Below, one piece after another: positions 7,528 through 59,606 of a stretch of 64,000 bases of DNA (position 1 is its first letter; each line of letters starts with the position of its first letter). The stretch is from contig NZ_SAUZ01000002.1 of assembly GCF_004022215.1 (NCBI RefSeq), forward strand, positions 186,001 through 250,000, given 5' to 3'. The notes below the pieces were generated by a model. The model saw only the letters and a program-made list of their open reading frames with translations, ran no database searches and had not been told where the DNA came from. The translations under genes were made by a program, and so were the position numbers. Source of the stretch: Paenirhodobacter populi (GTDB taxonomy: Bacteria; Pseudomonadota; Alphaproteobacteria; Rhodobacterales; Rhodobacteraceae).

Positions 7528-7818
7528 ATGCCGGGAGCCTATTGGATCGCGCATATCACCGTCACCGACCCGGAGGCGCATGGCGCCTATGCCAAGGCGG
7601 CGGGGCCGGCCTTCGACAAGTTCGGCGGCAGGATCCTCGCCCGCGGCACGCGCTACGTGACGCTTGAGGGCCGGGAACGCGGGCGCCATGTGGTGATCTG
7701 GTTCCCGAGCGTGGAGCAGGCGGAAGCCTGCTACCACAGCCCGGAATATCAGGCCGCGTTGGCGCTGACCAATGGCACGTCGGAGCGGGATCTGGTGGTC
7801 GTCGAGGCGGCGGACTAG
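7528..7818 (+). CDS. DUF1330 domain protein
   Basis: A 96-residue single-domain protein of the DUF1330 family (ferredoxin-like, dimeric alpha-beta barrel fold). Typical features are the N-terminal YWIAHITVTDPEAHGAYAKA, a central FGGRILARG and VIWFPSVEQAEACYHSPEYQ. No enzymatic role is established for the family. It follows alaS with one base between them, so it is translated from the same message; such pairing need not mean a link in function. Confidence 0.85.
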   Translation: MPGAYWIAHITVTDPEAHGAYAKAAGPAFDKFGGRILARGTRYVTLEGRERGRHVVIWFPSVEQAEACYHSPEYQAALALTNGTSERDLVVVEAAD

Positions 7819-7858
7819 GCGCATCCTCGTATCGGTTTCGCATGCTGCGGGCGGAGCA

Positions 7859-7927
7859 GGGGGCGCTGCCCCCTCTTTGCGCTAGAGCGCAAATTCACCC
7901 CCGGGATATTTGTGGAAGAATGAAGGC
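7859..7927 (+). repeat. Structured intergenic element, copy 1
   Basis: Palindrome GGGGGCGCTGCCCCC at 7859-7873, then a second hairpin TTTGCGC-taga-GCGCAAA, then the conserved box CACCCCCGGGATATTT with a GGAAGAATGAAGG tail. It fills most of the informative part of the 302-base gap between the DUF1330 gene and the amidotransferase gene. Other copies in the window share the first and third parts and keep pairing, though not sequence, in the second. Outside the element the gap shows nothing clear. Confidence 0.85.
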
Positions 7928-8120
7928 AGGGGGTGTTTCGGGCGTGAGGCGCGCGGGACAGGGCCGGCGGGGAATGGTCCTCCCTGATCTTCGGGGAACA
8001 GGGCGCTGATTTTCGGCGATGATCATGCCATGTGCGGCGTCATCGCACGTTTACAAATGGTCCGGTTCGGCTATCTTTTGCCGCGGCGCAGAAAGCCGGA
8101 CGGGCGAACAGAGGCAGGGC

Positions 8121-12900: not shown

Positions 12901-12978
12901 TCCGGCGCGGGAATTTTAAGCGAATCTTCAGGTCCCGCGGTCAACCTGTGCCGGAAGCGCGTTTCGGATGGGGCGCAA

Positions 12979-13036
12979 GGGGGCGCTGCCCCCTCGGCCT
13001 GCGGCCTCACCCCCGGGATATTTATGGAAGAATGAA
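12979..13036 (+). repeat. Structured intergenic element, copy 2
   Basis: GGGGGCGCTGCCCCC at 12979-12993, a short hairpin GGCC-tgc-GGCC, then CACCCCCGGGATATTT and GGAAGAATGAAGG. It ends about 50 bases before the chemoreceptor start, downstream of the phytoene-synthase-like gene. Confidence 0.85.
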
Positions 13037-16549: not shown

Positions 16550-16697
16550 CGCCGCTTTCCTGTTCCAGTCAGTTTCGATGACAATAACCTGAGTGAAAAA
16601 CTACGCTTTGTAAAGCCGATTCTTTTAGTCGGAAATAAGGTGTCCCGGAATATCGGCAAACATCCTCCGGTCCCGCGAAGCGGTTCACGGCTCTCGT
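16550..16697 (-). promoter_or_regulatory. Upstream region of the hemP unit
   Basis: An unusually AT-rich stretch (16565-16645) within GC-rich surroundings lies before the 51-residue ORF and should hold the promoter. On the minus strand TTTACA and TATTGT are visible, but 22 bases apart, so I cannot assign a promoter with confidence. An iron-dependent operator (Irr, RirA or Fur type) is expected from hemP biology; I see no exact consensus. No other gene is evident up to 17003. Confidence 0.35.
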
Positions 16698-16795
16698 CTT
16701 TCCCTGAATATTCCGGGGGATGAGGCGGATCAGAGAACTTTCGGGTGCAGGGACATCCCGTCGAATGCCGGAACGGCTGAGCTGGCAGGGCCCCC
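16698..16795 (-). repeat. Variant of the structured element with inserted hairpin region
   Basis: Reading plus: CCCTGAATATTCCGGGGG (inverted conserved box), then ATGAGGCGGATCAGA, a decayed insert, CCCGTCGAATGCCG, a hairpin GCCG-gaa-CGGC (16767-16777) and a degenerate GGCAGGGCCCCC. The same order, with the same GATGAGGCGGATCAGA and CGAATGCC blocks, is seen at 32741-32840. Confidence 0.65.
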
Positions 16796-16917
16796 GTTGC
16801 GCCGCCCTTTGGGCATGCGCTCACTCCGGAAAGCGGAAATCATGCGCGATGCCGGAGCCTGCTGTTCATCCCGGAGGTCCGACGGGTCGTCGAAATCGCG
16901 TCGCGGCCACGGCCCGG

Positions 16918-26013: not shown

Positions 26014-26084
26014 AATGAAGGCACCTTCATTCTTCCCTAAATATCCCGGGGGTGAGCCCGGAACGGGCGAGGGGGCTGGCCCCC
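26014..26084 (-). repeat. Structured intergenic element, copy 3, with palindromic end
   Basis: In minus orientation: palindrome GGGGGCCAGCCCCC (26084-26071), hairpin GCCCG-ttc-CGGGC, CACCCCCGGGATATTT, and tail GGGAAGAATGAAGG. The tail is mirrored by AATGAAGG so that AATGAAGG-ca-CCTTCATT (26014-26031) makes a perfect hairpin. It lies in the 399-base gap between miaB and phoH; the rest of the gap holds the phoH leader and no gene I can support. Confidence 0.8.
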
Positions 26085-26313
26085 TGCGCGCTCTCCACAT
26101 GCGGATCCCTCTTCATGAGGCCCCGCCTCCGGTCCCCTCATCCCCATCCTGCTTGAAAAACGGGCAGGCCGCCCCAATCTTGGTGCGAATGGCGAAAATC
26201 ATGACCGTTTGGTGAAATCTCAGCCCGGCCGCGATTCATCCGAAACCAGTGCTTGCGTGAACGGAAGGTGCAGGGCACCATATCTTTACCCAAGCCAGCC
26301 AAGGGAGACGTTA

Positions 26314-30305: not shown

Positions 30306-30358
30306 GGTTCAACCGTCCCAACGGCTTCCTGACGGGACGGGGGTAGAACCAATGGAGC
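30306..30358 (+). promoter_or_regulatory. SAM/SAH riboswitch of metK
   Basis: P1 stem CCGTCCC (30313-30319) / GGGACGG (30334-30340) encloses the loop AACGGCTTCCTGAC; the 3' part CAATGGAGCA can form the H-type pseudoknot through GGAGC with GCTTC, hiding the GGAG Shine-Dalgarno sequence. An outer GGTTC/GAACC pairing is also possible. These blocks match the small SAM/SAH riboswitch class described upstream of metK in Rhodobacterales. Bound ligand would block translation of metK. Confidence 0.92.
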
Positions 30359-30365
30359 ACTCCCC

Positions 30366-31532
30366 ATGTCCCGACAGAACTATGTTTTCACCTCCGAATC
30401 CGTTTCGGAAGGGCACCCCGACAAGGTCTGCGACCGGATCTCGGATGCCGTTCTGGACGCGCTGATCGCCGAGGAACCCAATGCCCGCGTTGCCTGCGAA
30501 ACCTTCGCCACGACCAATCAGGTCGTCGTCGGGGGGGAGGTCGGCCTGTCGGACAAGGCAAAGCTTGACGATTTCCTGCACCACGTCGATGGCATCGTGC
30601 GCGATTGCGTGCGCGACATCGGCTATGAACAGGAACATTTCCACTGGAAGACGCTGAAGTTCAGCAACTACCTGCACGCCCAATCCGCCCATATCAGCCA
30701 GGGCGTCGACAAGGACGGGGCGGGCGATCAGGGCATCATGTTCGGCTATGCGACGGACGAGACGCCCGAGCTGATGCCCGCGCCGATCCTTTACGCCCAT
30801 GCGATCCTGCGCCGTCTGGCCGAGGTGCGCAAATCCGGGCAGGAACCCACGCTCGGCCCCGATGCCAAGTCGCAGCTTTCGGTGCGGTATGAGGGCGGCA
30901 AGCCCGTGGGCGTGACCTCGATCGTGCTCTCGACGCAGCACAAGTTCGAAAGCCAGACCTCGGCCGATATCCGTGCGATCGTCGAACCCTATATCCGCGA
31001 AACGCTGCCCGAGGGCTGGATCACCGACAAGACCGAATGGTGGGTGAACCCGACCGGCACCTTCGTCATCGGTGGCCCGGATGGCGATGCGGGGCTGACC
31101 GGGCGCAAGATCATCGTCGACACCTACGGCGGCGCGGCTCCGCATGGCGGTGGTGCCTTCTCCGGCAAGGATCCGACCAAGGTGGACCGCTCGGCGGCCT
31201 ATGCGGCGCGCTATCTGGCGAAGAACGTGGTGGCGGCCGGGCTGGCGAAGCGCTGCCTCATTCAGGTCAGCTATGCGATCGGCGTGGCGAAGCCGCTGTC
31301 GATCTATGTCGACACCTACGGCACCGGCACCGTCCCGGATGAGGAAATCGAGCGGATCGTCGGCCAGTGCATGGACCTGACGCCGCGCGGCATCCGCACC
31401 CATCTGGACCTGAACAAGCCGATCTATGCCCGGACCTCGGCCTATGGCCATTTCGGCCGCGCGCCGGAGGCCGATGGCGGCTTCAGTTGGGAACGGACGG
31501 ACTTGACGGATACGTTGAAGAACGCTCTATAA
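30366..31532 (+). CDS. metK: S-adenosylmethionine synthetase
   Basis: Makes SAM from methionine and ATP. The N-terminal [35 protein letters not shown] and [20 protein letters not shown] are the nucleotide and methionine-site signatures; 388 residues is normal. The start ATG 30366 sits 10 bases after GGAG, which the riboswitch controls. trmB, which often follows metK in alphaproteobacteria, is not here; a hairpin terminator and convergent genes follow. Confidence 0.97.
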
Positions 31533-32602: not shown

Positions 32603-32740
32603 GGTCGAACTCCTCGTTCGCAACGGGGCAGGGGCGGAGTGTCCCGGCTTGCCTGCGGCGGATCATGCCCGCCCGTGCCGTCCGGCGCAAGGCCGGGTCA
32701 CACAGGGTTCAGGGGCAGCGCAAGATCACTCCCGTGCCAT

Positions 32741-32840
32741 CATTTTTCAATGAATATCCCGGGATGAGGCGGATCAGACATCCTGCCCGTGGAAGGATGT
32801 CCCGCCGAATGCCCGGCACGGGCGAGGGGGCGGCGCCCCC
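32741..32840 (-). repeat. Structured element, copy 4, with inserted hairpin
   Basis: Plus-strand order: inverted conserved box TGAATATCCCGGGATGA, then an insert whose arms ACATCCT / AGGATGT (32777-32800) pair perfectly inside GGCGG/CCGCC, then hairpin GCCCG-gca-CGGGC (32811-32823) and palindrome GGGGGCGGCGCCCCC (32826-32840). It fills the gap between prfC and the IalB-like gene. Confidence 0.8.
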
Positions 32841-32871
32841 TATCCACCCGCGCATTGTTCAGGGATTGGCC

Positions 32872-34467: not shown

Positions 34468-34534
34468 GGCCAGCGCTTTAGCCTGCGGGCGGGCGTTCGG
34501 CAATGGGGTTGGTCCGGTGGTGAGGGCGGGAAGC

Positions 34535-34618
34535 GGGGGGCGCTGCCCCCCGGTCCGGCGGTGGTTCCTGTGGCGCGGCGCCGCCTGCCCCCCGGGATAT
34601 TTATGGAAAAACGACGGA
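34535..34618 (+). repeat. Structured intergenic element, copy 5
   Basis: GGGGGGCGCTGCCCCCC (34535-34551), an enlarged second stem GGCGG (34557-34561) / CCGCC (34581-34585), then GCCCCCCGGGATATTT and ATGGAAAAACGACGG. Orientation is opposite to the flanking genes prfC and recJ. Confidence 0.75.
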
Positions 34619-46892: not shown

Positions 46893-46952
46893 CCGTCGTT
46901 TTTCCATAAATATCCCGGGGGTGAGGCTGAAAGCCGAGGGGGCAGCGCCCCC
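46893..46952 (-). repeat. Structured intergenic element, copy 6
   Basis: In minus orientation: GGGGGCGCTGCCCCC (46952-46938), hairpin GGCT-ttc-AGCC, CACCCCCGGGATATTT and ATGGAAAAACGACGG. The last 25 or so bases are the same as in copy 5. It lies between the convergent genes mug and the NmrA-like gene, where it could end transcription from either side. Confidence 0.85.
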
Positions 46953-47011
46953 TTCTCCCCATCCGCATATCCGCCGGAGTCCGATTCTGAAATCCCGGGG
47001 GCGCCACCCCT

Positions 47012-52484: not shown

Positions 52485-52549
52485 GCAGGTCGCAGGCAGC
52501 GGCCCGTCAAACGCAAGATCACCCGAACGGAGCCTGCCCCTTCTCCCTG

Positions 52550-52613
52550 TCGTGTTTCCATAAATATCCCGGGGGTGAATTTGCGCGCATGCGCAAAGAG
52601 GGGGCTGGCCCCC
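52550..52613 (-). repeat. Structured intergenic element, copy 7
   Basis: In minus orientation: GGGGGCCAGCCCCC (52613-52600), hairpin TTTGCGC-atgc-GCGCAAA, then CACCCCCGGGATATTT and ATGGAAACACGA. The second hairpin has the same arms as copy 1. It lies 65 bases after the aminotransferase stop. Confidence 0.85.
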
Positions 52614-52676
52614 TCGCCACCCCATCCGGTCGCGCCCGCGCTCCTGTCTTGAAACCGATGATGCCCCGGAAGGGAA

Positions 52677-59299: not shown

Positions 59300-59398
59300 G
59301 CTTGGCCGAAAGACACGACATTATCCGCAAGAGTTGGATGACCTTCGGGGACAAATGCCCCGCTGTTACCGGACGGAAGCGCGGATGGATGGGGCGCA

Positions 59399-59460
59399 GG
59401 GGGCGCTGCCCCCTCGGCGCAAGCGCCTCACCCCCGGGATATTTGAGGAAAGATGAAAGG
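59399..59460 (+). repeat. Structured intergenic element, copy 8
   Basis: GGGGGCGCTGCCCCC (59399-59413), hairpin GGCGC-aa-GCGCC (59416-59427), CACCCCCGGGATATTT and tail GAGGAAAGATGAAAGG. It lies in the 369-base gap between yjbF and comM. Confidence 0.85.
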
Positions 59461-59539
59461 AAGCCGGGCCGTATCGTGACGATTCACAAGGGCGTGGACG
59501 TATTCGTGCGCGTGCGAGACAGTCTGAACTTCGTCCCGT

Positions 59540-59573
59540 GGGTGAGCCCGGCACGGGCGAGGGGCAGCGCCCC
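59540..59573 (-). repeat. Structured intergenic element, copy 9 (truncated)
   Basis: Plus-strand GGTGA, hairpin GCCCG-gca-CGGGC (59546-59558) and palindrome GGGGCAGCGCCCC (59561-59573). The AT-rich conserved box is missing. It faces copy 8 in inverted orientation; the bases between and around them in this gap show no gene. Confidence 0.7.
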
Positions 59574-59606
59574 TTGCGGCCTCCCCGCCAGCGCCGGGTT
59601 TCCGGC

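Follow-up and report, generated by a model that had tools for sequence, protein, structure and literature searches.

A dispersed, structured repeat of the Rhodobacteraceae with coupled G and C runs, and its possible role at the 3' ends of genes

In Haemophilus and Neisseria, pairs of uptake signal sequences double as terminators. The repeats nearest in kind to the one described here are the REP/BIME elements, defined in the available part of PMC2817692 as short extragenic palindromes that occur in many copies and as inverted doublets, show compensatory changes and are specific in sequence to their genome. Bidirectional intrinsic terminators are found between convergent genes of Zymomonas mobilis, and clusters of hairpins can act as terminators with little reliance on a poly-U tail, according to the available parts of PMC7566282 and PMC8355165, respectively. 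The repeat of Paenirhodobacter populi examined in the current study is like REP/BIME elements (which are associated with RAYT transposases, themselves related to IS200/IS605) in being short, extragenic and palindromic, and in having many copies, inverted doublets, compensatory changes and a genome-specific sequence.

The window (the whole 64,000-nt stretch of P. populi DNA analysed) contains ten copies, namely the nine named in an initial annotation and a degenerate tenth. A copy was present at each of the nine places, with scores of 30–82 bits against covariance model R1, the training set of which (73 sequences) included six of the ten window copies. The covariance-model search that the annotation had proposed recovered these nine together with the newly found copy 3 (nt 16693–16797, - strand; 24.8 bits, E = 2e-4). 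Copy 1 (nt 7857–7924, + strand; 68.5 bits) is of the usual class A (see below) and, by the gene calls, lies in sense orientation about 40 nt past the end of a small predicted gene at nt 7818. As read from the + strand, it consists of hairpin 1 (GGGGG-CGCTG-CCCCC, nt 7859–7873), hairpin 2 with the covarying stem TTTGCGCT..AGCGCAAA (nt 7876–7893), the box CACCCCCGGGATATTT (nt 7896–7911), in which the C run is as long as the G run, and a tail that begins GTGGAAGAATGAAGG (nt 7912–7928), the counterpart of which in relatives pairs with the tail of a facing copy. Also of class A are copy 2 (nt 12977–13036, +; 78.5 bits), sense in a tandem gap; copy 4 (nt 26026–26087, -; 82.3 bits), antisense in a tandem gap and with a partial reverse complement of the tail just beyond it; copies 7 (nt 46895–46954, -; 76 bits) and 8 (nt 52549–52616, -; 68.4 bits), each in a convergent gap; and copy 9 (nt 59397–59457, +; 73.3 bits), which is the left member of a facing pair in a tandem gap. 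The right member of that pair is copy 10 (nt 59530–59576, -; 30.2 bits), in which the sequence has runs of 4 and a degraded box. Class B, with an extra hairpin, is represented by copy 3 and by copy 5 (nt 32739–32842, -; 41.6 bits), where GGCGG-(hairpin 3)-CCGCC stands ahead of the box. Copy 6 (nt 34534–34615, +; 46.3 bits) is antisense in a tandem gap and has runs of 6/6/6 and a long middle segment.

The annotation had ascribed one design to all nine copies. The nine do share it, but the copy at nt 32741–32840 has CATCCCGGGATATTC instead of CACCCCC and carries the inserted extra hairpin, and that at nt 34535–34618 is without the TC...TCA flanks. The copy at nt 59540–59573, which had been called truncated, is indeed shortened, but it is degraded as well: a GGGG/CCCC hairpin and GCCCG/CGGGC are kept, and its box now reads CACCCACGGGACG.

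Class A copies have the layout A-G5-loop-C5-TC-(stem 2)-TCA or TTCA-C5-GGGATATTT-nnGGAAnnnnGAAGG. In a profile of the P. populi copies, conservation is high from the A ahead of the G run onward and fades about 22 bases past the box, and about 12 bases ahead of the A are G-rich. Hairpin 1 was present at 90 of 99 box-like places in this genome, with the loop CCAG in 53, CGCTG in 32 and CGCCG in 5. Class B, with its extra GGCGG-(hairpin 3)-CCGCC, is represented by 7 P. populi copies, of which 6 have only three C in the box, and hairpin 3 varies in sequence with its pairing kept. Class C is without TC..TCA (for example C6-GTCTTCAT..ATGAAGAC-T-C6), and in class D, found in relatives, the two C runs are only three bases apart. 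The tails of 91 P. populi copies fall into four main types (29, 22, 19 and 16 copies), with 5 others. An outer stem formed from the G-rich flank was discarded as a general feature, being absent in Leisingera copies and in many of R. capsulatus. The exact box, CCCCCGGGATATTT, occurs 315 times in the P. populi genome, against 0 for a control with the letters reversed. Model R1 was built from 73 of the 81 short copies, without the seven that belong to class C and one that was out of range, and it matched 104 places at E up to 0.1 in 859 kb of this genome. None of the 91 strictly parsed copies came from the four stretches examined in contigs C3 and C6 (two in each).

A known RNA family was ruled out, with no match of the repeat at gathering score in Rfam 15; a search of the surroundings of copy 1 that admitted E values up to 5 gave as its top match (21.5 bits) an insect-virus family with a gathering score of 41. 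The sole Rfam match in the window, SAM-SAH, lies away from the copies. This SAM/SAH riboswitch (RF01727, 54.6 bits) occupies nt 30310–30359 (+ strand), just ahead of an ORF at nt 30366. A phage origin was also rejected, as one copy used as query gave 0 matches in 50,697 phage records. No description of the repeat was recognised in the literature searched, and an older one in subscription papers is still possible.

The annotation had held that the second hairpin changes in sequence but keeps its pairing, as a sign of selection on structure. Among the 83 of 90 P. populi copies that have a middle under 45 nt, a hairpin 2 stem of at least 4 bp was found in 82, with 28 distinct arm pairs, including that of the sole failure, a 2-bp stem (859 kb). 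Second hairpins that fail to pair in most copies, the outcome that would have spoken against the claim, were looked for, and this was not the case. After shuffling of the middles, such a stem formed in 5 of 83, and in chimeras of two different copies it formed in 38.5%, a level reached because many copies share a stem. When 23 distinct 18-base segments (from 45 copies of P. populi and other genomes) were aligned, 95.7% of cells paired, 28 cells were changed on both sides (shuffles 9.0 ± 2.1, slid partners at most 12), and the covariation score was 0.693 against 0.178 ± 0.044 after shuffling. Two of the five measures were no better than shuffles, namely pairs changed on both sides (4 vs 3.9) and further types (7 vs 6.5). 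Selection on structure is borne out by hairpin 2, and is extended by the central stem of facing pairs (55 units, see below).

The repeat is widespread in the family. All 18 genomes of the genus have the box, with 15 to 315 exact copies, as do 27 of 61 relatives overall, with 0 of 24 in other families of the class. A sample of 121 genomes of the order, every one a member of the same family, contained it in 83. Counts of the exact box are undercounts, as other species use variants such as GGAGTATTT or GAGGTATTT. Among the matches listed, the carriers were Ruegeria, Leisingera, Phaeobacter, Thioclava, Paracoccus, Salipiger, Gemmobacter, Rhodobacter and Paenirhodobacter. These names and the 83 sampled genomes confirm the mention, in the initial annotation, of similar sequences in other Rhodobacteraceae. 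The general interest of the repeat lies in its being a structured, covarying element, found in most sampled genomes of a large family and in up to hundreds of copies, that has no match in Rfam.

As to position relative to genes, 46 of 90 P. populi copies lie in convergent gaps, where 10.0 were expected from the intergenic bases outside copies (p = 7e-21), only 4 lie in divergent gaps (28.2 expected, p = 4e-10) and 40 in tandem gaps (51.8 expected), of which 22 are sense and 18 antisense. Genes were called with a simple purpose-written caller, which for other genomes used a model trained on that of P. populi. In two relatives (G010 and G014), each represented by one unselected 400-kb stretch, the upstream gene reads into hairpin 1 in all 25 copies (16/16 and 9/9). 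Convergent gaps hold 13 of the 16 copies in G010 and 7 of the 9 in G014, the other 3 and 2 are sense-tandem, and there were 0 antisense or divergent copies in these stretches. R. capsulatus stretches that had been chosen at pairs contained 12 convergent, 7 tandem and 1 divergent pair (24, 14 and 2 copies). At named 8-kb loci, 9 pairs were convergent, 8 tandem and 2 divergent, and of the single copies 25 lay in convergent and 6 in divergent gaps, 26 were sense and 22 antisense, and a further 14 were at an edge. For R. capsulatus copies into which the upstream gene reads, the median distance from stop codon to hairpin 1 is 7 nt (at most 15 nt in 29 of 34 cases); the medians in P. populi are 37 nt for convergent and 41.5 nt for tandem sense copies. 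The argument that copies in both orientations speak against a simple terminator is only partly upheld: it fits the tandem gaps of P. populi and the single copies at the named loci, but not the unselected stretches of the two relatives, in which all 25 copies are sense after a gene end. The antisense copies may be halves of a two-way pair.

Copies were also followed at orthologous sites. On Leisingera plasmids all 6 records examined retain the element in one convergent gap, where its tail is of at least two types. Within this gap (L261, L266–L270), the type of tail and spacer differs between close records and hairpin 2 is nearly constant. The corresponding site in the Cereibacter sphaeroides 2.4.1 record has no element, and two annotated genes overlap there. 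A first protein query for orthology hit a large paralogous family and was unusable. At two further convergent sites, gaps L314 and L316, tallies were read from the sequences by eye. Gap L314 has a facing unit in eight genomes, a single copy in two (including P. populi) and none in six, with two unresolved. Between R. capsulatus and its close relatives the two arms of this unit switch jointly, from CAAGGTGAAA/TTTCACCTTG to CAAGATGAA/TTCATCTTG, and so do the boxes, from GGGATATTT/AAATATCCC to GAGGTATTT/AAATACCTC; records L329–L331 have GAGGTATTT on one side and AAATACCTC opposite. Gap L316 has a unit in eleven genomes, only a palindrome like hairpin 1 in three and none in one, with two unresolved. 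One record here (L357) has hairpin 1, hairpin 2 and C6 followed by GCTTCTTTTTT, a U tract in place of the box. At these two sites the relatives that are devoid of a unit have gaps of about 10–24 nt, and one of 78.

The copies thus have covarying structures, are placed after stop codons, prefer convergent gaps and are conserved at orthologous sites. We put at about even the chance that the repeat is a 3'-end module (a terminator and/or stabiliser), two-way when copies pair; termination, 3' protection and action on RNA rather than DNA are what we infer from these sequences. The gene served by each copy would be the one with its stop codon ahead of that copy. Together, hairpin 1 (G_n/C_n), hairpin 2 and the box (C_n-GGGAUAUUU) would make up a compact, GC-rich fold with a short A/U-rich stretch behind it, and this fold would halt transcription and/or leave a 3' end protected from exonucleases. 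In keeping with termination, a simple terminator rule fires within 18 of 91 copies in the sense direction and 0 of 91 antisense, and L357 has a U tract at the place of the box. Facing copies, most often between convergent genes, would form a two-way unit, in which boxes and tails would join, at the level of read-through RNA or of extruded DNA, in a long central stem, and this stem would stop read-through or be cut by a double-strand RNase. In P. populi the family has spread chiefly as single copies, with tails that no longer match.

Several observations count against such a module. The box is weak as a U tract, and is not a proper one: it reads C5GGGAUAUUU, and the terminator rule, which demands a U tract right after the hairpin, misses 73 of 91 copies. 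Antisense copies, facing pairs outside convergent gaps and the unmatched tails of the facing units of P. populi are also unfavourable, as are the small margin between true and swapped partners within R. capsulatus, single P. populi copies with no downstream partner for the tail, and the relatives devoid of a unit at the two orthologous convergent sites. There is no sign that copies replace ordinary terminators, as the rule is equally or more frequent near sense copies (13/43 vs 17/97 in convergent gaps, 6/19 vs 21/217 in tandem gaps), counts that include its firing on the element itself. If the repeat does end or protect messages, it would bear on how these GC-rich bacteria, with their few U tracts, set 3' ends and separate neighbouring transcripts, and it would be a system in which a 3' module can be watched as it spreads, pairs up and loses its partner.

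An alternative, which we consider unlikely, is that of a selfish or domesticated repeat of the REP/BIME type, moved by a putative enzyme that recognises single-stranded hairpins, with gene ends merely tolerating the insertions. Extragenic position, high copy number, inverted doublets, covarying hairpins and genome-specific sequence would all fit, as would the spread of exact boxes from 15 to 315 within one genus, the CCAG loop of 53 of 90 hairpins 1, by which the P. populi copies resemble a burst, and the near balance of antisense and sense (22 and 26) among single copies in tandem gaps at the named loci. Mere tolerance does not, however, lead one to expect 25 of 25 unselected copies to be sense in two relatives. 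The persistence of copies at orthologous gaps also counts against this reading. The Y1 transposase (PF01797) was found in 0 of the 18 genus genomes by a search that was positive in 5 of 14 controls, and the repeat has no GTAG/GTRG head, hairpin 1 being preceded by A in 84 of at most 91 profiled copies. A RAYT-type REP is ruled out by these two absences, and since the defining RAYT and the head are both missing, the repeat has not been filed under REP/BIME. As to features of the MITEs of DDE transposons, no terminal inverted repeats were seen in the profile of single copies, and the empty and filled orthologous gaps are too diverged for a target-site duplication to be read.

The two-way form of the proposed 3'-end module rests on the facing copies, with tails inward, which are frequent in relatives. 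Among the first 100 copies listed for R. capsulatus SP108 there are 24 neighbouring pairs less than 200 bases apart, all of them + then - and none in another orientation, with a box-to-box spacing of 33–72 bases, mostly 44–46. The central stem consists of a 9-bp box stem, three mostly unpaired positions (an internal loop) and then 10–11 bp. In an alignment of 55 of 72 facing units, all from other genomes (the five of P. populi were excluded, and others fell outside the limits set for length or box), pairing holds in 95.9% of 1100 cells. Changes on both sides were seen in 12 of 20 pairs (10 of 11 for the tail helix alone) and in 120 cells, against 31.5 ± 4.8 in shuffles and at most 26 with slid partners. 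Because the units had been picked on their boxes, some selection for helix 1 is built in, and helix 2 is free of it. Across 67 units from other genomes, the tails of true partners paired at 10.97 of 14 positions, compared with 8.34 ± 0.18 after partners had been swapped; for R. capsulatus by itself the difference was small, with 11.62 and 10.65 ± 0.41, and some swaps reached 11.84. The five facing units of P. populi had 9.8 of 14 tail positions paired, versus 10.3 for swapped partners. A self-made hairpin downstream of single copies was also considered and rejected: in P. populi the tail found a downstream partner in 2 of 79 single copies, which is at chance (1.5 expected), and in other genomes in 7 of 82 (3.8 expected), some of these being facing copies that the filter had missed.

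R. capsulatus tails are of two types, and in 20 of 21 parsed pairs type is matched with type (chance 0.61, p = 5e-4). The parse left out some visible pairs, such as L307 and L312, the latter with visibly mixed tail types. By a rough rule, the members of pairs L306–L325 usually differ in class (A with C in 9 of 21, A with A once; 5 pairs have an unclassed member), as though long perfect palindromes were avoided. In two places (L324, about nt 1925–2030, and L088, about nt 1500–1560), a facing pair encloses an A-rich/GC-hairpin/T-rich stretch that resembles an ordinary bidirectional terminator.

The central stem would also serve an RNA-processing or insulating element, a reading that we regard as improbable. 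The stem formed on read-through would here be the site of a double-strand RNase, the 3' ends so made would be shielded by hairpins 1 and 2, and termination would occur elsewhere. The length of the stem and its covariation in 55 units are in keeping with this, and at least one R. capsulatus pair (L324) has a separate terminator-like A-tract/hairpin/T-tract between its tails, but most P. populi copies are single and thus without a central stem. Also improbable is a DNA site, in which facing tails and boxes would be dyad half-sites of a nucleoid or topology protein and would change together with it: symmetric arms, genome-specific sequence and the preferred spacing of 44–46 are as expected, but the overall spacing is broad (33–72), hairpins 1 and 2 are left without explanation, and a protein able to bind both tail types would permit mixtures, contrary to the matching in 20 of 21 pairs.

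Within the single copy, the G run, the first C run and the C run of the box are coupled in length. They are equal in 80 of 81 P. populi copies (71 of 5/5/5, 6 of 4/4/4 and 3 of 6/6/6), where shuffling gave a mean of 63.7 and at most 70, and in 15 of 17 from the unselected G010 and G014 stretches together (shuffled mean 7.0, most 13). These samples are the copies with an intact hairpin 1 and a short middle, i.e. 81 of 89 and 17 of 21, respectively. A wider set from other genomes had equal runs in 107 of 120 (shuffled mean 81.3), many of which had been fetched by a pattern that fixes both C runs. For R. capsulatus the figures were 30 of 35 pair members (shuffled mean 16.3, most 27) and 37 of all 51 parsed copies. 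Only 6 of 21 R. capsulatus pairs had the same run length in both partners, from which it follows that the coupling acts inside a copy. Species differ at the orthologous gap L316, some having runs of 4/4/4 and others of 5/5/5 or 6/6/6. In two gaps of this kind taken together, 29 of 36 parsed copies had equal runs, some of the seven unequal ones being misparsed, and one unit of 19 went unparsed.

To go from 5/5/5 to 4/4/4 one step at a time, a copy must take on runs of unequal length, and such copies are rare; either selection disfavours them, or all three runs are altered in one event. The cause of the coupling may be strand exchange, a triple helix or a mutational process. It had been suggested in the initial annotation that the G run could pair with either C run, in two folds that exclude each other. 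Equality of the G run with both C runs supports this indirectly, but predicted energies favour hairpin 1 over the alternative helix of the G run with the second C run by 2.4 to 7 kcal/mol in five examples. A putative switch can be conceived, though we think it doubtful, in which the G run would have to pair with both C runs, alternately or together (as a C+.G-C triple helix), the state of polymerase or ribosome would pick the C run, and termination or 3' protection would be regulated at hundreds of gene ends. Whatever its cause, the coupling of the runs is an unusual constraint, and one that is directly testable.

Unlike REP/BIME elements, the repeat has two hairpins, a box and a tail in each unit, three equal runs, and sense placement after genes in two relatives. 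It resembles the bidirectional terminators of Z. mobilis, as far as the available part of PMC7566282 describes them, in its enrichment in convergent gaps, its position soon after stop codons and its GC hairpins; those terminators have one hairpin with A/U flanks, whereas the pairs of the repeat are two multi-hairpin units with a shared central stem, and their boxes have only a weak A/U-rich stretch, with GGG between it and the C run. Adjacent hairpins and little U tract are shared with the hairpin clusters of PMC8355165, which in the available part of that paper are hairpins generally, whereas the repeat is a single family, conserved and dispersed, in which the box is fixed and its C run coupled. 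Uptake sequences are likewise dispersed repeats with inverted pairs at gene ends, but are short and are not known to be multi-hairpin.

A pair of hairpins on Comamonadaceae plasmids (L265, L275) has the same core, GGGG-loop-CCCC-TC-GGCC..GGCC-TCA-CCCC, with runs of 4, but neither L265 (nt 1500–1533) nor L275 (around nt 1501–1551) has the GGGATATTT box; the likeness may reflect relation or convergence. A 51-base query from one of the two matched at 478 places, spread over 472 plasmid records; 399 of these records match at 80–90% identity, and many are from Salmonella and Escherichia. Beyond the initial annotation, the present analysis adds the equality of the runs, the covarying stems of the facing pairs, the bias for convergent gaps and the spread of the box through most sampled genomes of the family.
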